NCBI RefSeq assembly: GCF_010731895.1
Contig: NZ_AP022596.1
Span: forward strand, 5,084,001 to 5,148,000
Length of the DNA stretch: 64,000 bases
Origin: Mycolicibacterium helvum
Lineage (GTDB): Bacteria > Actinomycetota > Actinomycetes > Mycobacteriales > Mycobacteriaceae
Direction of reading: 5' to 3'
A program made the translations under genes and the position numbers. This document shows, piece after piece, positions 13,580 to 33,173 of this stretch. Each line of letters starts with the position of its first letter. The first letter of the stretch is position 1. The notes below the pieces were generated by a model. The model searched no databases and was not told the origin of the DNA. It saw nothing but the letters and a program-made list of their open reading frames with translations.

Positions 13580-13584
13580 CGGGT

Positions 13585-14604
13585 TTATGGCCGGGTCAGC
13601 AGCGACGCCGGCGTTTTGACGAACATTGTGGTGATGGTCTCCGGGTCCACGCCGTAGTGGTCGCGCAGGAGCGGCATGATGGTCCGGGGGAGATGGCCGT
13701 AACCAAGTCCGCCGTAGTGTCGTTGGTTGATCTTCATCCAGACATCGCAGCCGAGCACGAGTTGCTCACCGAACCCCTCGCCGATGAGCGTGGTGAGATC
13801 CGCCAGCCGCTGTTGATCGGTCGCATCCCGGTGGAAATCGCCCCAATAGAATTCCGCGCCGAAGGTGTCGTACTCGAGTATCGCGCCCGACGCCGCGACG
13901 TCGCGGTGATAGGGCAGATCGAGGTGTTCGTCCATGTGGCTGAAGACGACCCGACTGGCAGTCATGCCCTCACTGAGCAGAACATCCAGGATGGACAAGG
14001 CGTGGGTGCCGAATGGGTCCAGATGGATATTCACCGCCGTTCCGGTTGCCGCGCCCGCGGCACCTGCGGCCCGTACCACTCGCCATTCGCGATCGGTGAT
14101 GGTTGCGCTAGTCCCGATTTCGCCGATGATCGCCGGACGGATACCCGTTCCTTCGATGCCGTCGCGCAGCTCGGTGAGGAAGAAGTCGGCCACCGCGTCG
14201 ACATCGGCCGACTCGACCCACTGCGGATGCGCATCGTGGACGTAGATGCCGGTGGACACGACGATGTTGACGCCCGTCCGGCGGGCGAGCGCCGGCAGGT
14301 CCGACACACGCCGGCCGAGATTGACCGGGGTGAGGTCGACCAGCGTCTGTCCACCTGCTTGGGCGAAGTCGTAGAGTTCGGTCTCGGTGACAGCGGGGTC
14401 ATCGAGGACCAGGTTGTCCTCGGAGCCATGGATGTGCCAACGCAGCCATCCGAGGTTGTCCATCGTGACCGCGACCGGATCGCAACGATCGGGCGGCGCC
14501 GAATACCAGACACGCGCATCGGAGAACAGGTGCTCGTGCATGCTTGTCACACCGAGTGACGCCGCCGGCACTGGGCCACCGACTGTGTGGATGTAACCCG
14601 TCAT
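13585..14604 (-). CDS. Phosphotriesterase-family metal hydrolase (PHP/lactonase-like)
   Basis: A 339-residue TIM-barrel amidohydrolase. Metal ligands are visible: HEH at residues 23-25, Glu162 in GEIGT as bridging ligand, His in NIHLDPF and FSHMDEH, and Asp in LGCDVW. A bridging glutamate in EIGT instead of carboxylated Lys resembles E. coli PHP rather than the organophosphate-degrading PTE. Likely substrates are lactones or similar esters, perhaps of a sugar acid, given the sugar ABC genes ahead. The start at 14604 overlaps the permease stop (ATGA) and is the family's N-terminus; an open frame continues upstream but is a shadow of the permease. Last gene of the minus-strand operon. Confidence 0.85.
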   Translation of the reverse strand: MTGYIHTVGGPVPAASLGVTSMHEHLFSDARVWYSAPPDRCDPVAVTMDNLGWLRWHIHGSEDNLVLDDPAVTETELYDFAQAGGQTLVDLTPVNLGRRVSDLPALARRTGVNIVVSTGIYVHDAHPQWVESADVDAVADFFLTELRDGIEGTGIRPAIIGEIGTSATITDREWRVVRAAGAAGAATGTAVNIHLDPFGTHALSILDVLLSEGMTASRVVFSHMDEHLDLPYHRDVAASGAILEYDTFGAEFYWGDFHRDATDQQRLADLTTLIGEGFGEQLVLGCDVWMKINQRHYGGLGYGHLPRTIMPLLRDHYGVDPETITTMFVKTPASLLTRP

Positions 14605-15437
14605 CGTTCGATGCCAGCCGTCAGACCGCGAACGATGTACCGCTGGACGAATACTGCGAACAGCAGGACGGGGGCGCTGGTCAACAGGGCGGCGGCGGCA
14701 AGCTGATCCCAGTGCACTGACGCATATCCCTTGTATCGGGAGGCGAGAATGGGAATGGTCGGATTCGCCGATGTCAGGGCAAGGGCGATGGTGACCTCGT
14801 TCCACATGTTCACCGCGAGAATGATTGCCGTGGTGGCAATTCCGGGAATCACCAGCGGTAGCGACACATAGCGCAAAGTACGCCAGGTGCTGCAGCCATC
14901 GAGCGTCGCCGCTTCGGAAAGCTCGGGCGGCAGTGCGCGGAAAAAGGCCAGCATCAGCCACATCGCCAGTGGCACAGCCGCGGTCTGGTAGGCCAGGGCG
15001 AGTCCGAGCGCGGTGTCGTAGAGCCCGATGCTCTGCAGCACTGAATACAGCGGAATGGCCACCAGGAAGTCGGGAAACAGGTACGCGACGAACAGCCATG
15101 CGAGTAACCCGGTGCGTGCACGCACCTCACGGCGGGTGAGGATGAAGGCCGCCGGAATCACCACGACCATGGTGATCACCAGGGTAATTCCGACGGTCAG
15201 GGCGCTCATACCCAGTGCTTGGATGAATCCTTGGTCATTCCATACGGTTTCGAACGCGGAAAACCGGGGGGTGAAGATGAATCGCGGCTCGCCGAAGGTC
15301 GCCACCGGATCCTGGGTAGCGATGCAAAATGTCCAGTACAAGGGGAAGAGGGTCAGTAGGACCGCCATTCCCAGGAATGTCCACTTGCCCAGCGATGCGA
15401 CGCGGCTAAGCACGGGAGCCCCTGAGTCCACGGACAC
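14601..15437 (-). CDS. Carbohydrate ABC permease, MalG type
   Basis: Inner-membrane subunit of a sugar-type (CUT1) importer, 278 residues and six predicted helices. The cytoplasmic EAA loop reads EAATLDGCSTWRTLRYVSLP and docks on the ATPase. GTG start, overlapping the end of the partner permease by 32 bp; a later start inside the first residues is possible. Operon order (minus strand) is binding protein, MalF-type permease, MalG-type permease, hydrolase. No ATPase is in this group; the MsmK/UgpC-type ATPase gene just upstream is the likely motor. Confidence 0.9.
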   Translation of the reverse strand: MSVDSGAPVLSRVASLGKWTFLGMAVLLTLFPLYWTFCIATQDPVATFGEPRFIFTPRFSAFETVWNDQGFIQALGMSALTVGITLVITMVVVIPAAFILTRREVRARTGLLAWLFVAYLFPDFLVAIPLYSVLQSIGLYDTALGLALAYQTAAVPLAMWLMLAFFRALPPELSEAATLDGCSTWRTLRYVSLPLVIPGIATTAIILAVNMWNEVTIALALTSANPTIPILASRYKGYASVHWDQLAAAALLTSAPVLLFAVFVQRYIVRGLTAGIER

Positions 15438-16326
15438 CCAGCACGATGACTACGGCGGCGCCGATCAACAGTGCGAACACCACCATCATTGTCATGCCCA
15501 TGCTCATCTCGTGCGCCCGGAATGCGGTGCGATACGCCAACATCTGGGTGAATTCGGTCGCCTGGCCCGGGCCCCCGTTTGTCGTGCCAAAGGCCAGGGC
15601 GAAGACCTTGAGACAGTCGATCGACCTGATGCCGGCAACAACGAGGAGCAGCGGGGTGATCATCGGCAGGGTGAGGTATCGGAACCGCTGCAGATAGTTC
15701 GCGCCGTCGAGTGCGGCTGCTTCGAACGGTTCCGCAGGAAGAGCCTGCAAGCCCGCCTGCAGGATCACGAACACGAATCCGGTTTGCCACCAGGCATCGA
15801 TCATCGCCAATGCCGGCAATGCCAGATTGGAGTCGCCGAGAAGATTGACGCCGTCGATACCGATTCGTGCTGCCAGCCAGGGGACGACGCCCAGCGTCGG
15901 ATCCAGCATGGCCTTCCAGATCATCGAGACCACGATGCCTGACACCATGAGTGGGGCGATGAAGATCGTGCGCAGCCAGGGGATGTTGCGCCCGGCCCGT
16001 TCGACAGCGAGAGCCAGGACCAGCCCGAGTACCAATTCGGACCCGACTGCCAGGACTGTGAAGACCCCGGTTCGGGCAAGTGATGCCCAATACTCCGAAC
16101 TGGTCAGGACCGTGAAGTAGTTGGCAAGCCCGACGAAGCTGAACCTGCTGCCCCAGTTCCAGTTGAAGAGGCTCAGGTAGATGGCGTAACAAAGGGGGAA
16201 CAGCGTTGCCAGCGCGAGCACGGCGAGCAGCGGGCCAAGGAAGGTGATTGACGCTCCGTCGGTTCGGTCGCGGGCACGCGCGCCGACGGCGGCTGCCTCA
16301 TCGGTACCGGTCAACGTATCCCTCAC
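15406..16326 (-). CDS. Carbohydrate ABC permease, MalF type
   Basis: The other membrane subunit of the CUT1 importer, 306 residues with six helices and a ~30-residue cytoplasmic N-terminus. The EAA loop is FEAAALDGANYLQRFRYLTLP. GTG start, overlapping the binding-protein stop by 4 bases (GTGA), so translation is coupled. With the following permease it should form the heterodimeric channel. Substrate cannot be assigned from the permease alone. Confidence 0.9.
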   Translation of the reverse strand: MRDTLTGTDEAAAVGARARDRTDGASITFLGPLLAVLALATLFPLCYAIYLSLFNWNWGSRFSFVGLANYFTVLTSSEYWASLARTGVFTVLAVGSELVLGLVLALAVERAGRNIPWLRTIFIAPLMVSGIVVSMIWKAMLDPTLGVVPWLAARIGIDGVNLLGDSNLALPALAMIDAWWQTGFVFVILQAGLQALPAEPFEAAALDGANYLQRFRYLTLPMITPLLLVVAGIRSIDCLKVFALAFGTTNGGPGQATEFTQMLAYRTAFRAHEMSMGMTMMVVFALLIGAAVVIVLGVRGLRGSRA

Positions 16327-17702
16327 GGATAGAGGGAGGCCATCTTGGTCTGAGCGTCGGTCATGACGGCCGAGGGATCCTTGCCTTGAGCCATCGCCAG
16401 AACCGCGTCGACGATGACGAGTAGGGCAGGGTCGGCGTCTTCCTTGATGACTGCCGTGGGCCGTGCTGTAGCGAGTGACTGTTTCACCGCGCTGACGTAT
16501 TCCGGCACGAAAGCCGATGTGTAGACCGGCATGTCGGTTGAGGATTGCCGCGGCGCCCCACCGGTGGCCGCGCCGATCTCAGCAGTGCGCTGCTTGTCGG
16601 TGAACCACTGGGTGAAGAGCCATGCCGCACCCTTGTTGTGACTCGCAGAGGGGATCGACAACGCCCAACTCCACAGTCCGCTGGTTCCGCCCTTGGCGGC
16701 CGGCGGTAGGGGGGCGTAGCCCACTTTGCCGACGATGGCCGACTGGTCGGGCTTCTCGAAGTTCGGTCCAAAGACACTGGCGTCAAGGTAGAAGGCGGCT
16801 TTGCCCTGGCTGAACAGAGCGCTCGCATCCGACCAGTCCAGGGCGAATTTGTTGGGTGGCCCCGCGGCGATCAACTGGGCATAGTCGTCAAGCCCTTGCC
16901 GGATCGCCGGATCGGTCATCCGCGGCTTGTTCCAGGCGCCGTTGAAATAGACGTTGTACGGCAGTGTGATGGGAGGGTTGGTCGCAGGCCACTCGTTGAA
17001 CACCATCGCGGTCGGGGTGTCGACGATGGAGGTGGCCCGAACACCGCGGACGACCGAACCGAATACCTCACCGTTTCCTTGCTCGGTAATGAGTTTGGCC
17101 CCCGCGATCAGGTCAGCCATCGTCGCGGGAACCTTGCCGCCGAGGTACTTCCCGACGAGATCCTTGTTGTAGAAAAGGATGTAGGTCTCAGTCGAGATCG
17201 GTACTCCGTATAGGGCCGCGTTGGAGTCGCCGGAGGGTAGGGTCGCGGGCTCGACGATGCCCTTCGGGAAGTCTGCCAGGTCGTAGCCGGAGGCCGTCAG
17301 CGACGCGTTGTTGATCATCGGGGTGAGGGGCTCCACCAGACCGGCTGCTTGCAGCGTCGCAAGATTGGTGTCGAGTCCGGTCATGACCACGTCCGGAGCG
17401 TCGGGTGTGCGGACGGCCTGATCGAGCTTGTCGAAGTAGAGGTCCTCGGCATAGGACTGGGCGTCGACCTTGATGCCCGTCGCGCTCTCGAAGTCCGCCA
17501 GCTTCGTCTTGACGGCCTCGGTCCACGGATGTTGGTCAAGCATGACGTGAATTGTCGTGCCGGAGAACCGTTTCCAGTCGAATGCGCCTTCAGCCGATAC
17601 GCTGGATGATTCCTTTGGAGTGTTGCCCATGCCGGCGCATGCGGACACCGCCAGCATGACACACGCACATAAGGCCGCTAGGACAATTCTTGTCTTGGTC
17701 AT
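16323..17702 (-). CDS. Sugar ABC transporter substrate-binding lipoprotein
   Basis: Extracellular solute-binding protein of the UgpB/MalE cluster, 459 residues. The signal peptide (residues ~4-21) ends in the lipobox AVSAC, so the mature protein is membrane-tethered through Cys. The body has typical FESATGIKVDAQSYAEDLYFDKLDQ and late WSWALSIPSASHNKGAAWLFTQWF elements. The ATG at 17702 has a strong GGAGG 5-9 nt upstream; an upstream in-frame codon (17753) lacks one and would precede the signal peptide by 17 residues. First gene of the importer operon; its promoter region carries a 14-bp perfect palindrome (17772-17785), the proposed GntR operator. Confidence 0.9.
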   Translation of the reverse strand: MTKTRIVLAALCACVMLAVSACAGMGNTPKESSSVSAEGAFDWKRFSGTTIHVMLDQHPWTEAVKTKLADFESATGIKVDAQSYAEDLYFDKLDQAVRTPDAPDVVMTGLDTNLATLQAAGLVEPLTPMINNASLTASGYDLADFPKGIVEPATLPSGDSNAALYGVPISTETYILFYNKDLVGKYLGGKVPATMADLIAGAKLITEQGNGEVFGSVVRGVRATSIVDTPTAMVFNEWPATNPPITLPYNVYFNGAWNKPRMTDPAIRQGLDDYAQLIAAGPPNKFALDWSDASALFSQGKAAFYLDASVFGPNFEKPDQSAIVGKVGYAPLPPAAKGGTSGLWSWALSIPSASHNKGAAWLFTQWFTDKQRTAEIGAATGGAPRQSSTDMPVYTSAFVPEYVSAVKQSLATARPTAVIKEDADPALLVIVDAVLAMAQGKDPSAVMTDAQTKMASLYP

Positions 17703-17771
17703 CGCGCCTCCGTGGGCTTTGGGCAGGTGGGAGGCGTTGATTACGCCGAGCACAGCTCCTTGAATACGATT

Positions 17772-17785
17772 CTTAGTATACTAAG
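17772..17785. promoter_or_regulatory. Predicted GntR operator, site A
   Basis: CTTAGTATACTAAG is a perfect 14-bp palindrome 70-83 bp upstream of the sugar-binding lipoprotein start. Related sequences lie before the first aminotransferase (20473-20486) and before the peptide-binding protein (21635-21648). The GT-A/T-AC core fits operators of GntR-family regulators, and one GntR gene sits in the middle of the island. On the minus strand TAGTAT inside it could serve as the -10 box, so binding would block transcription. Confidence 0.6.
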
Positions 17786-17881
17786 CACACTTAGTTCTTG
17801 TATGGCTGTTTTCGCGTTTTTAACACAGAGGTAACTCTGGCCGTTCGGCAGCGTCAACTCGGTTTGCCGCACACTGCGCAC

Positions 17882-18976
<1,095 letters not shown>

Positions 18977-19069
18977 AACGGGACCACCTTCTGAGTCAAG
19001 GGTGTGGCAGGTTCGCCGAACGAGTCAAGTATGCGGCGCTCCGTGTGAGCGCGCAGTACCTGGTCAACG

Positions 19070-20434
19070 TTAAGCCAGCCCAGGGCTTTGGCGCTCCTTG
19101 GCGATGACGGACAGTGCATCGGCTGCCGCAGTGAGGGTTTCGTCGATGTCCTCGTCGGTGTGTACGAGCGACACGAAAAGGTTCTCGAACTGCAGGGGGT
19201 GGAAGAGGACACCACGTACGACCATCTCCTGATACCAGCGAGTGAACAGCGCTTCATCGGCGTGGGTGACGGCATCTCGCCAATTCCGGATGGGAGCGTC
19301 GGCGAACCAGAGTTGGAATACGGTGCCCAGGCCCTCTACGTAGGCATCGAGGCCGTGGTCGGCAGCCAACACGGAAAGGCCCTCGGCGAGTCGGGTGCCG
19401 CGGGCGCGGGCTCGCTCGTAGAGTCCGGGCTCGGCGAGCGCGTCCATGGTGGCGGATACTGCCGCGCACTGAACGACGTTGGCGTTGTAGGTGCCCGAAT
19501 GCGAATACGTGCCGTCAGCCACCAACCGCATTGCGTCGGCGCTGCCGCCGACGGCCGCGACCGGAAAACCGCCGCCCAGGCCTTTTGCGAAGGTGGTGAG
19601 ATCGGGGTTGACCCCGAACCACTCCTGAGCTCCGCCCCGCGCAAATCGGAACCCGGTGATCACCTCGTCGAAAATGAGCATTGCGCCGTATTTGTGAGTC
19701 TCGGAGCGCAGCAGCTCGAGATAGCCAGGTTCGGGCAGGATGCAGCCGGTGTTGAAAACTGCGGGTTCGGTCAACACCGCCGCGACTTCGTGGCCTCGTT
19801 GTGCCATGAACTGAGTGAACAGGTCGGCGTCGTTCCAGGTGAGCACTGCCAGCGTCGACTCCAATTCCGCTGGGACACCGGGGCCCATCGCGACGGGTCT
19901 CGGGCTGTCGGCCGGCCCGGCCAGTGCGGGATCAACGTGGTTGGACCAGTAAACCGTGTCCTGCCAGCCGTGATAATGCCCTTCGAAACGGACTATGAGT
20001 CGGCGCCCGGTGGTCGCTCGTGCCAGGCGAACCGCGGTGCCGACCGCCTCGGAACCTGAGTTGGTGAAGCGAACCTGTTCAACGCTGGGAACGGCGGCGA
20101 CAACCTTCTCGGCAGCTTCGATCTCGAGTTCGTAGGGCAGCCCGAAGCAGGTGCCGAGTTCGTCGATGGCGGCTGACACGGCGCGGGTGATATCGGGGTG
20201 GCGGTGCCCGAGGATCATCGGCCCCAGTCCCAGGAGGTAATCGACGTACTCGTTGCCGTCCACGTCGGTGATGCGCGATCCGCGCCCCTGGGTGATGAAG
20301 AGCGGGTACGGCCGCCAACCGTTGCGGGGGAGTCGCGCTGTGCTGCCGGCTCCCCCCGGTACGGTGCGCCGTGCTCGCTCAAACATCCGGGCTGAACCAC
20401 TCGTCCGCGCCCGGAAGGCCTGCTCGAAACCCAT
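19070..20434 (-). CDS. Class III PLP aminotransferase (glutamate-1-semialdehyde aminomutase-like), copy A
   Basis: Fold-type I PLP enzyme of 454 residues. Expected active-site features are SGSEA (126-130), the GHYHGW segment that packs on the cofactor, FDEVITGFR with Asp256 binding the pyridine nitrogen, and Lys284 (TFAKGLGGG) forming the Schiff base. It resembles glutamate-1-semialdehyde aminomutase and beta-amino-acid or amino-alcohol aminotransferases; haem-type biosynthesis is unlikely in this context. A close paralogue of exactly the same length lies at 28399-29763. First gene of the minus-strand operon, with a predicted GntR operator over its -10 region (TATACT on the minus strand). Substrate unknown. 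Confidence 0.88.
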   Translation of the reverse strand: MGFEQAFRARTSGSARMFERARRTVPGGAGSTARLPRNGWRPYPLFITQGRGSRITDVDGNEYVDYLLGLGPMILGHRHPDITRAVSAAIDELGTCFGLPYELEIEAAEKVVAAVPSVEQVRFTNSGSEAVGTAVRLARATTGRRLIVRFEGHYHGWQDTVYWSNHVDPALAGPADSPRPVAMGPGVPAELESTLAVLTWNDADLFTQFMAQRGHEVAAVLTEPAVFNTGCILPEPGYLELLRSETHKYGAMLIFDEVITGFRFARGGAQEWFGVNPDLTTFAKGLGGGFPVAAVGGSADAMRLVADGTYSHSGTYNANVVQCAAVSATMDALAEPGLYERARARGTRLAEGLSVLAADHGLDAYVEGLGTVFQLWFADAPIRNWRDAVTHADEALFTRWYQEMVVRGVLFHPLQFENLFVSLVHTDEDIDETLTAAADALSVIAKERQSPGLA

Positions 20435-20463
20435 GACTATCCCTCGTTCGCCGTTTCCGGCAA

Positions 20464-20486
20464 CTTATCATAATAAGTATACAAAG
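20464..20486. promoter_or_regulatory. Predicted GntR operator, site B (two overlapping palindromes)
   Basis: ATAAGTATACAAAG (20473-20486) matches site A at 11 of 14 positions. It overlaps a second inverted repeat, CTTAT-CATA-ATAAG (20464-20477). On the minus strand the element contains TATACT, an ideal -10 box for the aminotransferase A gene, whose ATG is 39 bp downstream of the -10. Confidence 0.5.
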
Positions 20487-20562
20487 AGCCTCGAATTTCG
20501 GCCGCGCCCGCCATCACAGTCGAACTCGCCGTCGGTAGGCATACCGAGCATGACCGCGATGC

Positions 20563-20568
20563 TAGACT
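20563..20568 (+). promoter_or_regulatory. Candidate -10 box for the gntR-type gene
   Basis: TAGACT (TANNNT) about 73 bp before the regulator start, giving a leader of roughly 65 nt. It is separate from site B, so the regulator may not be strongly autoregulated. Confidence 0.3.
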
Positions 20569-20641
20569 CGTTGACTCGTACATGCCGGGCGGACGGGCAA
20601 GTTCCCGCCACCAAAGGTGGCTAGGCAAGGGGTGGAGGCCT

Positions 20642-21484
20642 ATGACTTCGAAGGCTCAGAAGTCCGCGCAGCCTCGCAAACGCCACGAGCGAAAGCTCCG
20701 GTATCAGCACGTCTACGACATGATCGAAGCCATGATCCGGGAGCAGGGTTTGCAACCGGGCGATAAGCTCCCGAGCACGGCCGAGCTGGCTGAGATGGCC
20801 AAAGTCAGCGTCATCTCGGTGCGCCGCGCCCTCGACGAATTGGCGCATCAACAGAAGATCACCCGCCACCAGGGTGTTGGTACGTTCGTTGCGCCGCATC
20901 GCATCACGAGCGAACTGACGCGGTCGGGAAGTCTGCTGCAAATGATGCGAGGGCCGGCCGGCGAGGTTGAGTTGCATACCGACCTGGTCAGCGTGCTCGT
21001 CGGGCTCGCCGGAGATCAGCATGCAATTGCACTGGGGGTGCAATCGGGATCTCCGGTGTGGGAAGTGACTCGGGTTCGCAGGGTCGGCGCCACTCCTAAG
21101 GTGCTGGAGCGGGCCGTTTTGCCGCTGGCCGTGGTCCCCTCGCTTGATCAAGAGCACCTGGCGGCCGGCGGATCGCTCTACGACTTCCTGCGTGACCAGT
21201 ACGGCCTCAGTGACGACCTCGTCGAGCAAGCGATGGAGGTCGTCGAGCCGAGCGCGTGGGAGCGTGAACACCTGAACTTGACCGGTCGCGACGACGTCGT
21301 GCGGATCAGGGGTACGAGCATCCGTGCCGACGGCGTCGTGTTCGACAGCTTCCAACAGACCTACTTGGCACACGATTTCGTGTTCTATGTTTCTGCATCG
21401 TCGCGGTCGCGGCTCATCGAGCCACGTGACGACAAATTCTGGGCTGTCCAGCCGCTAGGCCCGACGGCTCGTTCCGTCAACTGA
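20642..21484 (+). CDS. GntR-family regulator with UTRA domain (HutC subfamily)
   Basis: A 280-residue transcription factor. After a basic ~20-residue lead-in, residues ~22-90 are a GntR winged helix (PGDKLPSTAELAEMAKVSVI, then SVRRALDEL and HQGVGTFV). Residues ~105-270 are a UTRA effector domain of the chorismate-lyase-like fold, which usually binds a small metabolite such as a phosphosugar or histidine intermediate. The ATG at 20642 follows a GGAGG ribosome-binding site. It is divergent from aminotransferase A and points toward the peptide importer operon, so it most likely controls both arms through the GTATAC-type sites. The effector is unknown. Confidence 0.92.
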   Translation: MTSKAQKSAQPRKRHERKLRYQHVYDMIEAMIREQGLQPGDKLPSTAELAEMAKVSVISVRRALDELAHQQKITRHQGVGTFVAPHRITSELTRSGSLLQMMRGPAGEVELHTDLVSVLVGLAGDQHAIALGVQSGSPVWEVTRVRRVGATPKVLERAVLPLAVVPSLDQEHLAAGGSLYDFLRDQYGLSDDLVEQAMEVVEPSAWEREHLNLTGRDDVVRIRGTSIRADGVVFDSFQQTYLAHDFVFYVSASSRSRLIEPRDDKFWAVQPLGPTARSVN

Positions 21485-21504
21485 CCACGGCCCCGTTCCG
21501 GTAA

Positions 21505-21634: not shown

Positions 21635-21648
21635 CTTTGTATATAAAG
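21635..21648. promoter_or_regulatory. Predicted GntR operator, site C
   Basis: CTTTGTATATAAAG, a near-perfect palindrome (one mismatched pair) extended by an outer A/T pair, 22 bp upstream of the peptide-binding protein start. It matches site A at 11 of 14 positions. This position, just before the ribosome-binding site, fits repression of the peptide importer operon. Confidence 0.5.
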
Positions 21649-21669
21649 TGCTCCTTGGGAAGGATTGCC

Positions 21670-23313: not shown

Positions 23314-23319
23314 GACTCG

Positions 23320-24288: not shown

Positions 24289-25199
24289 CCCGCCCGCTAC
24301 ACGACCCCAACCAGGAACCCGAACCTGCCGCCGCGCACGTGGCGGGCGGATGGCGGGGGGTGCTACGCCAGCTCGTCGCCGACCCGATGGGCCGTATCGG
24401 CCTGCTCACCGTCGCCGTCGTCATGCTGGTGGCAATCCTCGGACCGCTCCTCGCACCGTACGACCGTACCGACGTCGCCGAGTCGCGGACCGGAATCCTG
24501 TTGCCGCCCAGTGCCGCCCACTGGCTGGGCACCGATGAACTTGGCCGAGACGTGTTGCGTCAGGTCTTGGCCGGCACGTCGGTGTCGCTGGAGATCGGAT
24601 TGATCGCCACCCTGATCACGGTGCTGATCGGGACGCTGGTCGGGGTGCTGGCGGGCTGGTTCACCGGTTTCGTCGACGCTGTCCTGATGCGCATCACCGA
24701 TTTTTTCCTGGTGCTGCCCAACCTGCCCTTGATGATTGCGCTCGGGGCAATCATCGGGCAGAGCCTGCCGATGATCGTGCTCGTCATCGCGATCACCAGC
24801 TGGCCCAGCACCGCGCGTATCGTTCGCTCCCAAGCTCTCGCGCTACGGGAGCGCGAGGTAGTGGCCCGCGCCAAAACCGTTGGGCTGTCGTCGGCGGGCA
24901 TCCTGTGGCGCCTGATCCTGCCCGGGGTGATGGCACTGGTCATCGCGAACGCGGTGCTGGTGATCGCCGGGTCGATCCTCGCCGAGGCCACATTGTCGTT
25001 CCTCGGCCTCGGCGATCCGGCCCGCACCTCATGGGGCCAGATCCTGCACAACGCCTTCGCGGCCGGCGCGGTGGGCAACGGCTTCTGGTGGTACTTTCTG
25101 CCCCCCGGTGTCGGCATTGTGCTGGTGGTGCTGGCCTTCTCGCTGGTCGGGCAGAGCCTGGAACGTATCCTCAACCCGCGGCTGGCGGTGGTCGAATGA
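24285..25199 (+). CDS. Dipeptide-type ABC permease, DppC/OppC family
   Basis: The second membrane subunit, 304 residues. A cytoplasmic ~40-residue lead precedes the first helix, then the DppC signature HWLGTDELGRDVLRQVLAGT, and the ATPase-docking loop with REVVARAKTVGLSSAGILWR. AEATLSFLGLGDPARTSWGQ near the end is highly typical. Overlaps the genes on both sides by 4 bases (ATGA). Confidence 0.92.
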   Translation: MTRPLHDPNQEPEPAAAHVAGGWRGVLRQLVADPMGRIGLLTVAVVMLVAILGPLLAPYDRTDVAESRTGILLPPSAAHWLGTDELGRDVLRQVLAGTSVSLEIGLIATLITVLIGTLVGVLAGWFTGFVDAVLMRITDFFLVLPNLPLMIALGAIIGQSLPMIVLVIAITSWPSTARIVRSQALALREREVVARAKTVGLSSAGILWRLILPGVMALVIANAVLVIAGSILAEATLSFLGLGDPARTSWGQILHNAFAAGAVGNGFWWYFLPPGVGIVLVVLAFSLVGQSLERILNPRLAVVE

Positions 25200-26167
25200 G
25201 CCTGCTGAGCATCCGCAATCTGACCGTCACCTACGGTGGCGGCGTGCGTGCGGTCGACGGTGTCGACCTGGACGTCTCAGCCGGCGAGGTGGTCGGGCTG
25301 GCTGGTGAATCCGGCTGCGGGAAAAGCACGCTGGCGCTTGCGGTGGCGCGTTTGCTTCCGCACGGAGCTGTCACGGCCGCCGACGAGATGGTTTTCGCCG
25401 GCACCGATCTGCGCACAGTCGAGGAAGCCGAATTGCGGACGCTGCGGTGGCGGCGGCTGTCGCTGGTGTTCCAGGGCGCGATGAACGGCTTCAACCCGGT
25501 CATGACAGTCGGTGCTCAAATCGGCGAGGCGATCCGCGCGCATGAGCCGGACGTCACCCGCAAGGCGGTGCGCCTGCGGGTCGCGGAGCTGCTGACCCAG
25601 GTCGGTATCGCCGCGGGCCGGGCCGCCGACTATCCCCACCAGCTGTCCGGCGGTATGAAGCAGCGGGCGATGATCGCCATGGCGCTGGCCTGCCGCCCCG
25701 ATCTGGTGATCGCCGACGAGCCGACGACCGCACTCGACGTCATGACCCAGGCGCAGATCCTCGAGCTGATCCGCGGTCTGGCTGACGAACTGGGGCTTGC
25801 CATGCTGATCATCTCCCACGACCTGACCGTGCTGTCCGAGCTGTGTGACCGGGTCGCGGTCATGTACGCCGGGCGGATCGTCGAGCGCGGAACTGCCGAG
25901 GAGATCCTGGGTTCCCAATCGCAGCCGGCCCATCCTTACACCCGCCGGTTGCTGGACTGCTATCCCCGCTTGGACGCGGGACAGGCGTCGATCAGTGGAA
26001 TCCCGGGCAGTCCACCCGATCTCGCGCATCCCCCGGTCGGCTGCCGCTTCCACGACCGCTGCGCCGAGAAGTTACCGCGCTGTGTGAGCGACGATCCGGC
26101 CCCGCGTCTGGTGCCTGGCGCCTCCGATCATGTCGCGGCATGTCATCTGGTGGGGGTGTCCGCATGA
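25196..26167 (+). CDS. Dipeptide-type ABC ATPase, DppD/OppD family
   Basis: A 323-residue ATPase. Walker [10 protein letters not shown] is near residues 38-46, signature [15 protein letters not shown], Walker [13 protein letters not shown], and switch His in IISHDLTVL. The C-terminal oligopeptide-transporter extension contains cysteines ([14 protein letters not shown]) that in DppD/OppD relatives bind an iron-sulfur cluster. The ATG at 25196 overlaps the permease stop; an upstream in-frame codon lies in the permease gene and is rejected. Works with the next ATPase as a heterodimer. Confidence 0.92.
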
Positions 26168-27186
26168 CCAAGCCGGTGGTCGCCGAGGTCAGCGACCTGC
26201 ATGTGCACTTCCCGGTCCGGCACGGTCGTCAGCGCCTGACCGCGCGCGCCGTCGACGGTGTCGACCTGTCCGTGAGTGAAGGCGAGATCGTGGCCCTGGT
26301 AGGTGAATCCGGGTGCGGCAAGACGACGGTGGCCCGCACCATCATGCGGCTCGTCGAAGCGAGCTCGGGGTCGGTAGCGGTCGGCGGTGTCGATATCACC
26401 CACGCCCGTGGCGCGGCTCTGCGAAGACAGCGCCAGGACTTCCAGATGATCTTCCAGGATCCGTTCGAGAGCCTTCCGGTCAACGCCACCGCGATCGATG
26501 TCGTCAGTGAAGGTCTCGGCATCCACCGTAAGGACCTGGACGCGGCAGCACGGCACTCGGTGGCGCTGGGGGCGTTGGAGATGTGCGGGCTCACGCCGGC
26601 GACGGCCATTGCGCAGCGGCGGATCTTCCAGCTGTCCGGCGGGCAGCGCCAGCGCGTGGCCATCGCAGCCGCGCTCGCTCTCGAGCCCCGGCTGCTGGTG
26701 GCCGACGAGCCGGTTTCCATGCTGGACGTCTCGTTGCGCGCCGGCGTCATCCGGGTGCTGCTGGATATGCGTGAACGGCTCGGTGTGGCAATCCTTTTCA
26801 TCACGCACGACTTGGCGCTGGCCGGTGTTTTCGCCGACCGGGTGGCCGTGCTTTACTTGGGCCGGGTGGTCGAGCAGGGTCAGGCCTCGGATGTCATCGG
26901 GACTCCCCGGCACCCCTACACCCGCGCACTGGTGGACGTCATGCCGAAGGCTGGCGGCGGCCGGCGAGCGGCGCGCACGCTGCTGAGCGGTGAGCCGCCC
27001 AACGCGACCGCCACCGCGACGGGCTGTCGCTTCGCGCCGCGTTGCCCGCTGTACCGGCAGCTCGGCCAACCCGAACGCTGTCGCGCGGAGCAACCACTGC
27101 TGACCGCCGTCACTCCGGAACACGCTGTGGCGTGCCATTTTTCCGACCTTGAAGTATCACCGACACCGAAGGAGAACACCATATGA
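26164..27186 (+). CDS. Dipeptide-type ABC ATPase, DppF/OppF family
   Basis: The partner ATPase, 340 residues. Walker [11 protein letters not shown]-loop in IFQDPFESLPVNAT, signature LSGGQRQRVAIAAAL, Walker B LVADEPVSMLDVSLR and switch His in ITHDLALAG are all intact. The C-terminal CRFAPRCPLYRQ...RC segment parallels that of the preceding ATPase. The start at 26164 overlaps the previous stop (ATGA) and the end overlaps the peptidase start (ATGA), so this set of genes is very likely one transcript. Confidence 0.92.
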   Translation: MTKPVVAEVSDLHVHFPVRHGRQRLTARAVDGVDLSVSEGEIVALVGESGCGKTTVARTIMRLVEASSGSVAVGGVDITHARGAALRRQRQDFQMIFQDPFESLPVNATAIDVVSEGLGIHRKDLDAAARHSVALGALEMCGLTPATAIAQRRIFQLSGGQRQRVAIAAALALEPRLLVADEPVSMLDVSLRAGVIRVLLDMRERLGVAILFITHDLALAGVFADRVAVLYLGRVVEQGQASDVIGTPRHPYTRALVDVMPKAGGGRRAARTLLSGEPPNATATATGCRFAPRCPLYRQLGQPERCRAEQPLLTAVTPEHAVACHFSDLEVSPTPKENTI

Positions 27187-28367
27187 CCGTCACTCGCGAG
27201 GAAGCGATCGAGCTGCTTGAGGCGATGGTTCGAATCGACTCCGTGACGCCCTGGCTGATCCCGGGCGGGGCGGGCGAGGGTGAGGTCGCCCGGTTCACGC
27301 GTGACTGGCTCGCCGATCTGGGCCTGGACGCGACGTTGGAGGAAGTGGAGCCTGGCCGGCCCAACGTGCTGGCGTGGCTGCGGGGCAGCGCGCCCGGCCC
27401 GACGATCTGCCTGTCCGCACACAGCGACACCGTCGGCTACGCGAACTGGCCCGACCGCGCACTGCACCCGGTGATCGAGGGTGACCGGATGATCGGGCTG
27501 GGTGTGGCCGACGACAAGGGCGGCTGCGCGGCGGCCATGCTGGCGGTGCGCGAATTAGTGCGCTCTGGAGCCGAATTGGCGGGCAACATCCTGGTGGCAC
27601 TGGTGATCGACGAGGAGGGCATCAGCATCGGCACCGAGCATCTGGTCGCCCATCACGCGGCCGAGATCGACCTGGCCATCAACCTCGAACCCGACGGTTC
27701 TCACACCATCTTCGGCGAGCACCAGGGATTCGGGTGGATCGACATCGTGGTGCACGGCGAACCGGCCCACGGTTCGGCTCCGGACAAAGGTGTGGATGCG
27801 ATCGTGCACATGGCTGAGGTGGTGACCCGCCTGCATCGACTCGATGAGACTCGGTGGAAGCCGAACCCTGATCCGAAGAACGGGCGCACCGTGTTCCACA
27901 CCGGGACCATCAGCGGCGGAACCGATTACGCCACGTATCCGAATCAGGCGGTGTTGGGTATCGAGATCGGCACCCAACCGGGCGAGACGCTGGCCGACCG
28001 GGTGGCCGAGATCGAGGCGATCTTCGCCGAAGTGAAGGAATCCGAGCCGCGTTTCCGGGGCGAGGTCATCGTCCGTCTGGACCGCGATCCCTTCACCGGC
28101 GAAGGTAACGAGGCGCTGCTCGACGCACTCGCCGACGCGACGGAGGCGGTCAACGGAGTGCGTTCACCGATCACCGGCCTCAACGCCTGGACCGATGCCG
28201 CGTTGTTCCAGAGCGCCGGCATCCCGACTGTGCTGTTCGGCCCCGAGGGCGGCAACTATCACGCCGCAGAGGAATGGGTGTCCATCCCGGACGTGATCGC
28301 CACCACCGAGATCCTCCGCCGCACTCTGGTGACCATGTTGGGCACCTCCGTTTCCCCCGCACAGTGA
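27183..28367 (+). CDS. M20-family metallopeptidase/amidohydrolase
   Basis: A 394-residue co-catalytic zinc hydrolase of the ArgE/DapE/ACY1/CPG2 group. Zinc ligands and base are visible: His80 and Asp82 (SAHSD), bridging Asp110 (VADDKGG), Glu144-Glu145 (DEEG), and a C-terminal His in GGNYHAAEEW. A small dimerisation domain occupies ~180-290. These enzymes cleave N-acyl amino acids, dipeptides or N-succinyl-diaminopimelate; which applies here is not shown. Placement right after a peptide-type importer suggests it cleaves the imported substrate in the cytoplasm. ATGA overlap with the ATPase gene. Confidence 0.9.
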   Translation: MTVTREEAIELLEAMVRIDSVTPWLIPGGAGEGEVARFTRDWLADLGLDATLEEVEPGRPNVLAWLRGSAPGPTICLSAHSDTVGYANWPDRALHPVIEGDRMIGLGVADDKGGCAAAMLAVRELVRSGAELAGNILVALVIDEEGISIGTEHLVAHHAAEIDLAINLEPDGSHTIFGEHQGFGWIDIVVHGEPAHGSAPDKGVDAIVHMAEVVTRLHRLDETRWKPNPDPKNGRTVFHTGTISGGTDYATYPNQAVLGIEIGTQPGETLADRVAEIEAIFAEVKESEPRFRGEVIVRLDRDPFTGEGNEALLDALADATEAVNGVRSPITGLNAWTDAALFQSAGIPTVLFGPEGGNYHAAEEWVSIPDVIATTEILRRTLVTMLGTSVSPAQ

Positions 28368-28398
28368 CATGAAAACGACTGCAAAGAAAGAGAGTTCG

Positions 28399-29763
28399 AT
28401 GTCGTTCGCCGACGCGTTCGCCACCCGTACGCCCGCCACCGCCGCCATGTACGACCGGGCGAAACGAACGATCCCCGGCGGTGCGGGCTCGACAGCCCGG
28501 TTACCGCGCAACGGGTGGAAGCCGTACCCGATTTTCATGGCTGAGGGCAGCGGATCGCGCCTTACCGATGTGGACGGCAACACCTACATCGACTATCTGC
28601 TGGGGCTGGGCCCGATGATCCTGGGTCACCGGCACCCGGTGGTGACCAATGCTGTCACCGAGGCGGTGCGTGATCTGGGCACCTGCTTCGGACTTCCCTA
28701 CGAGCTGGAGATCGAGGCTGCCGAGAAGGTGGTGGCTGCGGTGCCGGGTATCGAGCAGGTGCGGTTCACCAACTCCGGATCCGAAGCGGTCGGCACCGCG
28801 GTCCGGCTGGCTCGGGCGACCACCGATCGACGCATCGTGGTCCGGTTCGAGGGGCACTACCACGGCTGGCAGGACACCGTGTATTGGTCGAACCACGTTG
28901 ATCCGGTGCTGGCCGGGCCGGCCGACCATCCACGTCCAGTCGCCATGGGGCCCGGGGTTCCAGCCGAATTGGAGGACACCCTGGTTGTGCTGACCTGGAA
29001 CGATCCCGACAGCTTCGTCGAGTTGATGAATCGGCGCGGTCACGAGATCGCCGCGGTGCTTACTGAACCCGCCGTGTTCAATACTGGCTGCATCCTGCCC
29101 GAACCCGGCTATCTCGAACTGCTGCGCAGCGAGACCCGCAAGCACGGTGCCCTGTTGATCTTCGACGAGGTGATCACCGGGTTCCGGTTTGCCCGCGGCG
29201 GAGCCCAGGAGTGGTTCGGCGTGACACCGGATTTGACGACCCTGGCCAAGGGGCTTGGCGGCGGTTTTCCGGTGGCCGCGGTGGGCGGGTCAACGGAGGC
29301 GATGCGGCTGGTCGCCGAAGGCCGTTATTCACACTCGGGCACCTACAACGCCAATGTCGTTCAGTGTGCGGCAGTCTCGGCCACCATGGATCTGCTGGCC
29401 GAGCCGGGACTCTACGAGCGGCAGCGTGCTTTGGGACACCGGCTTGCCGCAGGTCTTGGCGAACTGGCTGCCGACCGGGGGCTTGACGCCTACTGTGAGG
29501 GGCTGGGCACGGTGTTCCAGCTGTGGTTCGCCAACGGTCCGATCCACAACTGGCGTGATGCGGTTGCCCGCGCCGACGAGGCCTTGTTCACCCGGTGGTA
29601 CGAGGAGATGGTCGTTCGCGGAGTGCTGTTCCACCCCCTTCAGTTCGAGAACCTCTTCGTATCGCTCGTGCACGACGACCGCGATATCGACGAGACGCTG
29701 CAGGCTGCTGCCGACGCACTGACCGTCGTCGCCCGCACCCGGACTCCCGCCGCCAAGTCGTGA
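28399..29763 (+). CDS. Class III PLP aminotransferase (GSA aminomutase-like), copy B
   Basis: 454 residues, colinear without gaps with copy A at 19070-20434 and about four residues in five identical by eye. The same catalytic residues are present: SGSEA (126-130), Asp256 in FDEVITGFR and Lys284 in TLAKGLGGG. The start at 28399 (AAAGAGAG ribosome-binding site) gives the same N-terminus as copy A; an ATG ten codons earlier (28369) is possible but has no homologous extension. It overlaps the kinase gene by 4 bases (GTGA). The two copies probably handle the same or closely related amino compounds in the two arms of the island. Confidence 0.88.
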   Translation: MSFADAFATRTPATAAMYDRAKRTIPGGAGSTARLPRNGWKPYPIFMAEGSGSRLTDVDGNTYIDYLLGLGPMILGHRHPVVTNAVTEAVRDLGTCFGLPYELEIEAAEKVVAAVPGIEQVRFTNSGSEAVGTAVRLARATTDRRIVVRFEGHYHGWQDTVYWSNHVDPVLAGPADHPRPVAMGPGVPAELEDTLVVLTWNDPDSFVELMNRRGHEIAAVLTEPAVFNTGCILPEPGYLELLRSETRKHGALLIFDEVITGFRFARGGAQEWFGVTPDLTTLAKGLGGGFPVAAVGGSTEAMRLVAEGRYSHSGTYNANVVQCAAVSATMDLLAEPGLYERQRALGHRLAAGLGELAADRGLDAYCEGLGTVFQLWFANGPIHNWRDAVARADEALFTRWYEEMVVRGVLFHPLQFENLFVSLVHDDRDIDETLQAAADALTVVARTRTPAAKS

Positions 29764-31181
29764 CCGGACCGGTAGTCATCGGCGTCGATCTCGGCACCTC
29801 GGCAATCAAGATCGTCGCGGTCGGCCGCGACGGCGATGTCGTCGCGACAGCCCGGTGCGGGTATCCGACACGCCGGCCCGAACCCGAAGCAGCCGAACAG
29901 GATACGCAGCACTGGTGGGAGGCGCTCGGCACCGCCGGTGACGCGATCGCCGGTATGGTGGCGCCCCAGCGATGGCGCGCGATCGGACTGAGTGCGATGC
30001 TGCCGACCCTGGTGGAGCTGGACGCGGCGGGCAAGGCGGTGGGATCGGCGATCACCTGGGAGGACGCCAGGGCTGAGCCGCAGGCCGATGCGCTGCGCGC
30101 CACGATCGGCGACGACGTGCTGTATCAGATCACCGGCCAACGCGTCGACGGCCGGTACCTGGCGCCGATGCATGCGCGGCTGCGTGGGCTGGGCCGCACC
30201 GGCGCAATCGTCGCGGGGGCCAAGGACGTGCTGTTCCACCAGCTGACCGGACACTTGCTCACCGATCCCAGCACTGCTGCCGGCAGTGCCGTCTTCGACC
30301 TCGAGCAGGGCTGCTGGAGTGCCGAACTAGTCGCGGCGTCAGGCGGTTTCGAGGTACCCGAGGTGGCCGATGCCGCCACGGCGCTACCGCTGGTGTCGTC
30401 GTGGCGGCAGCGCTGGGGGGTGGCCGGCGACCTGCCCGTGGTACTCGGGGCGGCGGATTCGGTGCTCGGCGCACTAGGGGTTGGCGCGGTCGCCCACGGT
30501 GACGTCGGGGTCATCGCCGGAACCAGCGCGGTGGTGCTGGGCATTTCCGACCGGCCGGTCCGCGACCCGGCCAGGCGGTACTTGGTAACCCCGCTGGCCG
30601 GATCCGGGTGGGGGCTCGAAATGGATCTACTGGCAATGGGCTCGGCATTCGACGCAGTCGCCGCCCTGTTCGGCCTTGGCGGTCCGGCGGACCTACTCGA
30701 GCTGGCCGGCGCCGTCCCAGTTGAGGAGGCGCCGCTGTTTCTGCCGTACCTGTCACCGGGGGAGCAGGGGGCGCTGTGGGATCCGGGTCTGACCGGCACC
30801 CTGCAGGGTCTCCGGCTCGGGATGGGAGTCGGTCACATCGGCCGGGGGTTGCTGACCGGGATCGTGGTCGAACTGCGCCGCTGTATCGATGTGTTGGCCA
30901 TGACGACAGGCCGGTCGGGTCCGGTACGGCTCGGCGGCGGCAGCGCGGTCAGCCCGCTGATGTGGCAGGACATCGCCGACGCGACGGGCCGTGAGGTGTG
31001 GGTGGACCCGGTAGTGACTGATCATTCGACAGTGGGTGCGGCGTTGTTCGCCGCCGCTGCCACCGGCGACCCGATCGTGCGCGACGATGCGCCGCGGATC
31101 ATCGAGCCGCGCGCCGAGCGGTACGCCTGGTGGACGGATTGCCTTGTGCGCCATGACGACGCGCGGCTCGGACGGAGGTAG
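29760..31181 (+). CDS. FGGY-family carbohydrate kinase
   Basis: A 473-residue ATP-dependent sugar or polyol kinase. The N-terminal phosphate loop GVDLGTSAIKIV is at residues 6-17. WEDARAE resembles the sugar-contacting motif of xylulokinases, GAADSVLGALGVGA marks the second domain, and GGGSAVSPLMWQDIADATGR is the FGGY adenine-site signature. The GTG start at 29760 overlaps the aminotransferase stop; earlier in-frame codons are inside that gene. The family phosphorylates xylulose, glycerol, ribulose, erythritol and others; the exact sugar cannot be read. Its product may feed the NagB-type deaminase that follows 4 bp later. Confidence 0.9.
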   Translation: MTGPVVIGVDLGTSAIKIVAVGRDGDVVATARCGYPTRRPEPEAAEQDTQHWWEALGTAGDAIAGMVAPQRWRAIGLSAMLPTLVELDAAGKAVGSAITWEDARAEPQADALRATIGDDVLYQITGQRVDGRYLAPMHARLRGLGRTGAIVAGAKDVLFHQLTGHLLTDPSTAAGSAVFDLEQGCWSAELVAASGGFEVPEVADAATALPLVSSWRQRWGVAGDLPVVLGAADSVLGALGVGAVAHGDVGVIAGTSAVVLGISDRPVRDPARRYLVTPLAGSGWGLEMDLLAMGSAFDAVAALFGLGGPADLLELAGAVPVEEAPLFLPYLSPGEQGALWDPGLTGTLQGLRLGMGVGHIGRGLLTGIVVELRRCIDVLAMTTGRSGPVRLGGGSAVSPLMWQDIADATGREVWVDPVVTDHSTVGAALFAAAATGDPIVRDDAPRIIEPRAERYAWWTDCLVRHDDARLGRR

Positions 31182-31185
31182 GGCG

Positions 31186-31911
31186 ATGAAGGTGAGGGTT
31201 GTTGACGACGAGATGTTCGCCACCACCGCCGCCACCGCGTTGCTGGTGAATCTGCCGCCGGACAGACCCCGGCTCGGGGTCGCAACCGGCGGTACGCCGA
31301 TGCGCCTGTACGACGAGCTGGCCCGGCGCAGTAGCCGCGGGGAGATCGATCTGTCGGGCGCCGTCGTAATCGCCCTGGATGAGTACCTTGGGCTGGCCGA
31401 CGGTGACCCGCACAGCTATGCCACCTATGTGGATGAGCACATCGCCGGCCCGCTTGGTATTCCGGCCGCCAACGTCCATGTACCCCAAGGCTATGGTGAC
31501 GATCCGGCGCCCGGGGCGGCGGAATTCGAGGACCGTATCGCCGAAGTCGGCGGTGTCGATGTCCAGATCGTCGGTATCGGCTCCAACGGTCACCTGGCCT
31601 TCAACGAGCCAGGCTCGGCACTCGACTCGCTGACCCGCGTGGTGGAGTTGTCCGAACAGACCCGGAACGACAATGCGCGGTTCTTCGGTGGCCGGGTCGA
31701 TGCCGTCCCTCGGCGGGCGATCACCCAGGGATTGGCGACGATCTGCCGCGCCCGCTCGATCCTGCTGTTGGCTGCCGGCCAGACGAAGGCCGCCGCGCTG
31801 GCCGCCGCGCTGCGGGGACCGGTCGGCAGCGATGTTCCGGCCTCCGTCTTGCAGCGACATGGCGACGTGACGGTGATTGCGGATCGGGCGGCGTGGAGCA
31901 GGATGTCCTGA
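31186..31911 (+). CDS. Glucosamine-6-phosphate deaminase-like protein (NagB family)
   Basis: A 241-residue sugar isomerase/deaminase. The catalytic Asp is in ALDEYLGL (Asp65) and the ring-opening His and Glu are in GIGSNGHLAFNEPGS (His136, Glu141). N-terminal ATGGTP binds phosphate. NagB converts glucosamine-6-phosphate to fructose-6-phosphate and ammonia. The start has GGAGG upstream; a longer in-frame reading starts inside the kinase gene and is rejected. No N-acetylglucosamine-6-phosphate deacetylase (nagA) is nearby, so a free amino sugar or a different amino-phosphosugar is more likely than GlcNAc. Overlaps the next gene by one base. Confidence 0.88.
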   Translation: MKVRVVDDEMFATTAATALLVNLPPDRPRLGVATGGTPMRLYDELARRSSRGEIDLSGAVVIALDEYLGLADGDPHSYATYVDEHIAGPLGIPAANVHVPQGYGDDPAPGAAEFEDRIAEVGGVDVQIVGIGSNGHLAFNEPGSALDSLTRVVELSEQTRNDNARFFGGRVDAVPRRAITQGLATICRARSILLLAAGQTKAAALAAALRGPVGSDVPASVLQRHGDVTVIADRAAWSRMS

Positions 31912-33173
31912 TGAGTGATTCCCAGGTGTTGGGCTTGTTCCCGCCCGGTTCAGTTGTCGATCACGGCATGCTGAGCGTCGGTGGCTGCCGACTGGACGAC
32001 ATCGCGGCCGAGTTCGGCACTCCGGTCATGGTGGTCGCCGAGGACGCGGTGCGTCAGCGGGCCAGGGATTATCTGGCGGCGTTCCGCAGCCGCTGGGCTC
32101 GCGCCGATGTGGCGTTCGCGTCAAAAGCGTTCCCGTGTACTACGATTCAACGTCTGGCTAGCGAGGAGGGGCTGCTGCTCGACGTCGCGGGCGGGGGCGA
32201 GATCATCACCGCGCTGGCGGCGGGCGCTGACCCGGCCCGGATGTTGTTGCACGGTAACGCCAAGACCGACGAGGAACTCGAACTGGCCGTCGCCAAGGGC
32301 GTCGGTCTGATCGTCGTCGACAACTTCGACGACATCGACCGGCTGGAGCGCATCGTCGAACCGGGCCACCGGCAGGCCTGCCTGGTGCGGGTGGTGCCCG
32401 GTATCGAGGCCGATACCCACGCGGCCGTCGCGACCGGGCATGCCGGCTCGAAGTTCGGTCTGCTGCCCGAGGACGCACGCGTGGCGATCGACCGGATCCG
32501 CCGCAGCAGGGTGTTGCGCTGCGACGGCGTGCATACCCACGTCGGCTCCCAGCTGCTCGATGCCGAGCAGCTGGCCGCCGCCGTGGCTCCGGTCGCCGCG
32601 CTCGGCAGCTTCGACGTCTACGACTTCGGCGGTGGGCTCGGTGTCCGCTATACGTATGCCGATCAGCCACCTGAGGTGGACGTCTACGCCCAGACCATGA
32701 TTGACAAGGCTCGCGGGCTGGTCCCCGCCGATGCCCGCATCATCGTTGAACCGGGCCGGTCGATGACCGCCACCGCGGCGTGCACGGTCTACCGGGTCAC
32801 CACCGTCAAGCGCGGCAAGGTCATCCATGTCGCGGTCGACGGCGGGATGGGGGACAACCTCGAGGTGTCGCTATACGGGCAGCGGTTCGAGGCCACGCTC
32901 GTCGACCGGCTCGGCGGCGGCGAGAGCGTCACAGTGGTGGGCCGGCACTGCGAGTCCGGCGATCAGCTGATCGACGTTGTGCCCCTTGATAATCCAGCCG
33001 TCGGCGACCTGCTGGCGGTGCCCGTCACCGGGGCGTATTGCTACACGATGTCCAACCAGTACAACGGCGCGCGCCGCATCCCGGTGGTGTTCGCCACGGG
33101 CGGCGATGCCCGCCTCGTCGTGCGTCGGGACACCTGGGCCGACCTACTGGCGCGTGACGTGGAGCTACCGTGA
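31911..33173 (+). CDS. Fold-type III PLP decarboxylase, diaminopimelate decarboxylase-like
   Basis: A 420-residue paralogue of LysA. The Schiff-base lysine is Lys72 in FASKAF (YAxKAN in canonical LysA). Other landmarks are [19 protein letters not shown], the phosphate-binding EPGRS loop, VDGGMGDN, and CESGDQL with the dimer-interface Cys. This points to a decarboxylase of DAP, or of a D-configured or related diamino acid, rather than an alanine racemase. Mycobacterial lysine synthesis normally uses a lysA elsewhere, so this copy is probably catabolic. Last gene of the plus-strand operon; its end overlaps the convergent P55 gene by 9 bp. Confidence 0.85.

Follow-up and report, generated by a model that had tools for sequence, protein, structure and literature searches.

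A candidate catabolic island of Mycolicibacterium helvum with a conserved aminotransferase–FGGY kinase core and exchangeable front ends

Why would one gene block carry two different ATP-binding cassette (ABC) importers, two similar aminotransferases and one regulator, and would these serve one pathway or two? The question is raised by a 64,000-nucleotide stretch of the 6.4 Mb genome of Mycolicibacterium helvum (contig NZ_AP022596.1, positions 5,084,001–5,148,000; this whole stretch is referred to as the window, and positions are counted from its first letter). An earlier interpretation made from the letters alone (the sequence-only reading) had placed an island at 13585–33173, and we found this span and nearly all of its gene family assignments to be correct, although the island carries 17 genes, a GntR/UTRA regulator gene and 16 structural genes rather than fourteen. 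Arm A, on the minus strand, encodes a phosphotriesterase (PTE) family hydrolase, two CUT1 permeases, a solute-binding protein, an MsmK/UgpC-type ATPase and aminotransferase A. Arm B, on the plus strand, comprises a five-gene Opp-type importer followed by genes for an M20 hydrolase, aminotransferase B, an FGGY kinase and NagB-like and LysA-like enzymes. We consider it reasonably probable that the island is a single co-regulated catabolic system, with a fixed aminotransferase–FGGY core and exchangeable front ends, for the breakdown of an amide-linked amino (sugar or polyol) compound. Literature searches found no paper describing such a pathway, in agreement with the sequence-only reading, which knew of no named pathway with this gene set.

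The aminotransferase–kinase core and its neighbours

The core is a class III, glutamate-1-semialdehyde (GSA)-like aminotransferase, represented in arm B by aminotransferase B (28369–29763, plus strand; PF00202, E 2.6e-65), together with an FGGY kinase of an uncharacterised subfamily (29760–31181, plus strand; PF00370 and PF02782) and an associated GntR regulator; its composition is fixed by gene-neighbourhood evidence. Judged by their aminotransferase genes, 50 of the 60 fetched loci of the family were distinct; at least 60% identity was reached by 48, a cut that excluded L037 and L132. The window itself is not counted, and neighbouring genes were scored within 13 kb of the aminotransferase gene. 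An FGGY gene was found in 47 of the 48 relatives and a GntR gene in 46. Among 51 control class III aminotransferases of 39–46% identity, on contigs of varied length, one had an FGGY gene (L038, with a kinase of 27% identity) and none had GntR or LysA. In L037, L038 and L132, whose aminotransferases are 45–55% identical, importers accompany the aminotransferase and no FGGY kinase was found at a 40% cut. The sole relative without FGGY is L011, from M. komossense; for this species the listings also show an aminotransferase of 82% and an FGGY of 52% identity, both on a contig of 506,975 bases that may come from another strain. The sequence-only reading had named a grouping by chance in this strain as the outcome that would count against it. 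The grouping is not by chance: it extends well past this strain, and the core is found in 48 distinct relatives, of which 23 are not Mycobacteriaceae.

Around this core, the parts are exchanged. Importers were represented by at least three of the five Opp genes in 42 of the 48 loci, by at least three CUT1 genes in two and by an APC permease in seven. Hydrolases of the M20 (28), M17 (12), S12 (22) and PTE (1) families were found, at least one of the four in 46 loci, with no co-occurrence of M20 and M17 (0/48). NagB was present in 24 loci, SIS in 7 and LysA in 23, and NagB and SIS never occurred together. Where at least 7 kb was available on both sides (27 loci), FGGY and GntR were each found in 26, and a hydrolase and an importer in all 27. 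In L149 the gene order is FGGY-SIS-LysA-S12, with SIS in the place that NagB takes in the window (FGGY-NagB-LysA). The SIS proteins of L027 and L032, the two that were scanned, had GlmS and NagB-II as their best models, below the curated cut-offs. L157 combines in a single cluster GntR, CUT1 genes (59–64% identical to arm A), an aminotransferase, FGGY, M20 and an Opp-type importer (26–42% identical to arm B).

With a strict E-value cut, the aminotransferase is present in 18 of 198 genomes of the genus, 11 of 394 of the class and 4 of 396 of the phylum, and in 7/17, 4/201 and 2/17 genomes of three single families, a patchy distribution as expected for mobile or often-lost genes. Among 8,000 candidates scored, 1,815 were aminotransferase homologs at E ≤ 1e-100, not all of which necessarily belong to the same subfamily.

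Genes for the E1 and E2 components of a 2-oxoacid dehydrogenase, assigned by Pfam in L156 (4160–7545) and by matching open reading frame (ORF) lengths in L161 (12629–16014), lie near the GntR–aminotransferase cluster and may represent the lower end of a pathway or mere neighbours. In L154 a DeoC/LacD-family aldolase and an aldehyde dehydrogenase are encoded at 12860–15390, close to the SIS gene of the cluster.

Predicted operators and history of the two arms

The regulator gene (20582–21484, plus strand, with a possible alternative start at 20642; PF00392 and PF07702) is accompanied by predicted operator sites at all three island promoters: CTTAGTATACTAAG at 17772–17785, ahead of the operon of solute-binding protein A; a region of two overlapping sites (20464–20477 and 20473–20486) at 20464–20486, between aminotransferase A and GntR; and CTTTGTATATAAAG at 21635–21648, ahead of the arm-B operon. 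The pattern CTTWGTATAYWWAK, derived from the three promoter regions, matches those three places only, genome-wide, with no matches for its reversed control; at up to two mismatches it has six matches in the window (three places, both strands) against a mean of 0.18 in window shuffles. A fairer and unbiased test is the genome scan with the perfect palindrome CTTAGTATACTAAG, which was taken from relatives. At up to three mismatches it was found at five places (27 for the reversed control), one of them elsewhere in the genome, at 1855383, and four inside the island, at 17772, at 20464 and 20473 (overlapping) and at 21635. Because four of the five places fall at island promoters, arms A and B look like one regulon. 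Where the sequence-only reading would have been contradicted by arms answering to different effectors, the predicted operators of the two arms are of one type.

In a tree, the window GntR groups with the regulators of L014–L019, L021 and L026. Scanning of loci L009–L038 with CTTWGTATAYWAAG at up to two mismatches showed a site preceding the aminotransferase gene in all eight fetched loci of this clade and a site in only one of the 22 others (L009, at its Opp operon); the control loci L039–L088 had two such sites in 814,885 bases. CTTAGTATACTAAG itself is found ahead of the aminotransferase gene exactly in L014, L016, L018 and L026 and with one or two mismatches in L015, L019, L017 and L021.

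Arm B without arm A, and with a regulator of another clade, adjoins ribD in nine fetched loci (L009, L115–L120, L124 and L127), with whose regulators the window GntR does not group in the tree. The arm-A solute-binding protein was found in 2 of 198 genomes of the genus and 4 of 394 of the class. In L171, from the other genus genome that has it, the arm-A regulator is 73% identical to the window GntR, and 1.77 Mb separate arm A from the one aminotransferase of that genome, which has FGGY. In this arm A the frames of the importer, the ATPase, PTE and GntR are open and there is no aminotransferase; the interval between GntR and MsmK (6795–7616 of the locus) holds an island-type FGGY remnant (17% of the length) and, by eye, the C-terminal tail of a NagB-like protein. 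Arm B appears to be the older part, to which arm A and its regulator were added.

Of the twin aminotransferases of the sequence-only reading, A (19070–20434, minus strand; PF00202, E 4.8e-69) is 82% identical to B, but we rejected a recent local duplication: B pairs with L009 (support 100/98), and A branches off, with modest support (90/70 and 80/76), apart from the arm-B sequences that were sampled and is not grouped with L015, which is of the arm-A type.

Five relatives (L009 and L115–L118) have CTCTGTATACAGAG in common at the promoter of arm B, where the window has CTTTGTATATAAAG, three changes within an otherwise well conserved stretch; L122, L013, L034 and L033 have other variants there. 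This is a suggestion rather than a demonstration that the incoming regulator took over the resident arm B, whose operator would have changed at three bases, because the step is small: CTCTGTATACAGAG has four mismatches to CTTAGTATACTAAG and the window form, with outer triplets CTT/AAG, has three. If true, the island would be a readable example of one regulator replacing another while the operator changed to match.

Enzyme identities and a proposed pathway

With 398.8 and 392.3 bits, aminotransferases A and B score below the cut-off of the HemL equivalog TIGR00713 (527.3 bits), and they pass the broader subfamily model PRK00062 (cut-off 398) with 419.7 and 412.1 bits. The gate-loop sequence, which has a role in HemL, differs by eye in all 13 island-type rows shown from that of L004, a same-genome paralog with HemL-like motifs. 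An identity as HemL was rejected on these two grounds, although Ser21 and Arg24 of Escherichia coli HemL, which have a substrate role, are kept in 48 of 49 rows, with one gap. The FGGY kinase reaches 209 bits with the xylulokinase model (XylB equivalog cut-off 380.25). In all 46 aligned rows (the window and 45 relatives, loci with less than 80% coverage being left out), the column of E. coli XylB His78, a residue with a substrate role, holds Pro and GERTP is replaced by GEQGA, with the catalytic Asp233 kept, so both score and His78 speak against XylB. A survey of the FGGY family makes use of five specificity positions (PMC3245297).

The NagB-like amino-sugar-phosphate deaminase/isomerase (31186–31911, plus strand; PF01182) has 215.3 bits against a nagB cut-off of 236.9. 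Of the catalytic residues of E. coli NagB, Asp72, His143, Glu148, Arg158 and Lys208 are kept in 24 of 24 rows and Asp141 is changed to Asn in all 24. The LysA-like decarboxylase (31911–33173, plus strand), dependent on pyridoxal phosphate (PLP), exceeds the lysA cut-off (TIGR01048, 360 bits against 297.9) and retains the PLP Lys and the Cys-Glu-Ser motif, but its side-chain pocket is altered. Its Glu318, as counted on the alignment, occupies the column of Arg344 of Mycobacterium tuberculosis LysA, which binds the distal carboxylate of diaminopimelate (DAP). All 24 island-type rows (the window and 23 relatives) have Glu in this column, and the two further LysA paralogs of the genome (4895676–4896953 and 721131–722408 of the contig), each 44% identical to the island enzyme, have Arg. 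We therefore rejected the assignment as a DAP decarboxylase in spite of the score, and the diamino acid decarboxylation proposed in the sequence-only reading is doubtful because of this Glu.

The arm-A hydrolase (13585–14604, minus strand), formerly taken for a PHP-like enzyme, belongs to the phosphotriesterase family (PF02126, E 7.7e-56) and not to the polymerase-histidinol-phosphatase family. Its relatives in the PDB include the phosphotriesterase-related proteins 3k2g and 9efa and the amidohydrolase Pmi1525, and the third-best solved one is an entry named phosphotriesterase-related protein. Enzymes of the PTE family can act as amidases: mammalian PTER cleaves N-acetyltaurine (PMC11374699). 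The PDB relatives of solute-binding protein A (16323–17702, minus strand; PF01547, E 3.3e-32) are labelled as sugar ABC transporter, trehalose/maltose and sorbitol (4rya) proteins. As a guide to the substrate, the solved neighbours of solute-binding proteins A and B were rejected as too mixed to decide.

Because unrelated hydrolases capable of acting on amides interchange, as do NagB and NagB-II-like enzymes, we infer that the conjugate is amide-linked and that one step acts on an amino-sugar phosphate; the substrate may be an aminoacyl- or acyl-amino-sugar or -polyol. Front end A would consist of the CUT1 importer, with permeases A2 (14601–15437) and A1 (15406–16326; both PF00528), solute-binding protein A and the MsmK/UgpC-type ATPase (17882–18976; NCBIfam NF008653, 473.6 bits, cut-off 432), all on the minus strand, and the PTE-family hydrolase. 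Front end B, all on the plus strand, would comprise the Opp/Dpp-type solute-binding protein B (21670–23313; PF00496, E 3.9e-89), permeases B1 (23320–24288; PF00528 and PF19300) and B2 (24285–25199; PF00528 and PF12911), ATPases B1 (25196–26167) and B2 (26164–27186; each PF00005 and PF08352) and the M20 (ArgE/DapE-type) hydrolase (27183–28367; PF01546, E 8.1e-28), with M17 and/or S12 enzymes in relatives. Each front end would take up a conjugate, whose amide bond the hydrolase would cleave inside the cell; the aminotransferase would then strip the amino group off one released part and the FGGY kinase would phosphorylate a sugar- or polyol-like part. NagB, or a SIS-type NagB-II-like enzyme in relatives, would deaminate or isomerise an amino-sugar-like phosphate for entry into central metabolism, and the likely substrate of the LysA-like decarboxylase is an amino-acid part other than DAP. 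GntR/UTRA would keep the promoters repressed until an intermediate binds.

The amide hydrolysis, deamination, phosphorylation and amino-sugar-phosphate chemistry anticipated by the sequence-only reading fit the conserved and interchangeable parts; of its single pathway, the joint control of two importers stands and one pathway is probable, the substrate being conjectural. A fuller version is more tentative, and we would sooner doubt than accept it: an undescribed pathway, passed around between actinobacteria, for conjugates of an amino acid with an amino sugar or aminopolyol. In it, the amino sugar or polyol would be acted on first by a GSA-type aminotransferase and then by a new FGGY kinase, NagB and NagB-II-like enzymes would be interchangeable although unrelated, an enzyme that once decarboxylated DAP would now serve a different amino acid, and a second importer–hydrolase arm would have come with a regulator that then gained control of the resident arm. 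Among 120 listed relatives, the aminotransferases that bear a name are termed glutamate-1-semialdehyde 2,1-aminomutase, aspartate aminotransferase family protein or generic class III enzyme, and the kinases xylulokinase, sugar kinase or FGGY kinase. These database names of actinobacterial relatives are doubtful, and the automatic names of the LysA-like enzyme and the kinase look wrong from the residues just described. If true, the proposal would provide a testable pathway and a corrected annotation of those aminotransferases and kinases.

Several observations weigh against a single amino-sugar pathway. The loci are not independent, 25 of the 48 being mycobacterial. The choice between NagB and SIS follows taxonomy: the 25 Mycobacteriaceae relatives have FGGY in 24, GntR in 24, NagB in 23, SIS in none and LysA in 20, and the 23 others have FGGY in 23, GntR in 22, NagB in one, SIS in 7 and LysA in three, so that a single ancient event may account for the exchange. 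NagB and SIS are both absent near 17 of the 48 aminotransferase genes and LysA near 25, some contigs being short, and these enzymes may therefore be side branches. The HemL-like Ser and Arg hint at a carboxylate on the aminotransferase substrate, and we know of no FGGY kinase that acts on an amino sugar. In L171, in spite of its similar regulator, the only operator-like sites have three mismatches, with none at two or fewer. Finally, L172 and L173 (genomes G754 and G717) encode arm-A-like solute-binding proteins (52–54% identical) with no such aminotransferase, FGGY or PTE in the fetched stretches, and that importer family therefore also serves other roles.

Could the parts instead serve the recycling of cell wall? 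Peptidoglycan-fragment catabolism would assign muropeptide-like peptides to the Opp importer, trimming to the peptidases, DAP to LysA and glucosamine-6-phosphate to NagB, and M17, M20 and D-peptidase-like S12 hydrolases do recur in the clusters with LysA- and NagB-like enzymes. We regard it as unlikely: the Pfam matches of the island include no muropeptide-specific enzyme, the invariant Glu of the LysA-like proteins replaces the DAP-binding Arg, the CUT1/PTE arm has no place in it, and we know of no role for the aminotransferase–FGGY core in such recycling. Polyhydroxylated amines or D-amino acids, decarboxylated first by the LysA-like enzyme and then handled as aminopolyols by the aminotransferase and FGGY, with NagB as an isomerase only, would account for the altered LysA-like pocket and the sorbitol-labelled 4rya, and open-chain polyols and ketoses are substrates of FGGY kinases. 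Yet LysA is near just 23 of the 48 aminotransferase genes and NagB retains nearly all the deaminase residues tested, which makes this quite improbable.

Catabolism of glycated amino acids (Amadori or Heyns compounds), with FGGY as fructosamine kinase and NagB or SIS as deglycase, has a similar architecture in its favour. The frl systems of E. coli and Bacillus subtilis and the fra and gfr systems combine, between them, GntR/UTRA control, a CUT1 importer with an MsmX-type ATPase or an APC permease, a sugar kinase and a SIS enzyme, features that the island or its relatives share. Direct comparison with the E. coli frl genes, however, gave only 24–28% identity for the matching parts (24% for the L027 SIS protein and FrlB, 28% for APC and FrlA, 25% for GntR and FrlR). 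The island has FGGY instead of FrlD, no SIS or PfkB gene among its matches, and an alternative in NagB; the SIS proteins match GlmS and NagB-II best, and the amide hydrolases and conserved aminotransferase are left unexplained. We find this reading quite unlikely as well. A reading of the arms as transport operons with no relation to each other, brought side by side at one site, would be consistent with the nine arm-B-only ribD loci and with the rarity of the arm-A solute-binding protein, unlinked in one of its two genus genomes, but this is very unlikely in view of the operator-like sites at all three promoters, the CUT1 and Opp-type importers in the one cluster of L157 and the presence of one of the 82%-identical aminotransferases in each arm.

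Other known systems resemble the proposed single system in part. N-acetylglucosamine catabolism through NagA and NagB shares a NagB-like enzyme, a GntR/UTRA regulator and a CUT1 importer, but the island matches include no NagA- or NagK-type gene, with FGGY and an aminotransferase instead. Opine uptake has in common the family-5 solute-binding protein, as seen from the PDB relatives AgaA (6hlx) and AccA, whereas the downstream enzymes differ. In ectoine degradation, a deacylase is followed by a class III aminotransferase; the island, however, has FGGY and NagB, and no ectoine hydrolase is among its matches.

Surroundings of the island

The island is flanked on the left by ribD (12560–13579) and on the right by a gene for a major facilitator superfamily (MFS) transporter (33165–34730), presumably P55, paired with one for an LppX_LprAFG lipoprotein. 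By its neighbours the genome belongs with the mycobacteria, its best relatives being Mycolicibacterium. No RNA families or tRNAs were found within the window. Low G+C content proved weak as a mark of arm A, with 0.62–0.63 at 14–24 kb, a span into which arm B already extends, and 0.61–0.66 at 36–50 kb as well. Further downstream, at 37823–49301, three large paralogs lie in a row (ORFs of 1264, 1247 and 1089 amino acids; 41–43% identical where they match best). They carry Big_9/cadherin-like repeats and a basic N-terminus that by eye suggests secretion.

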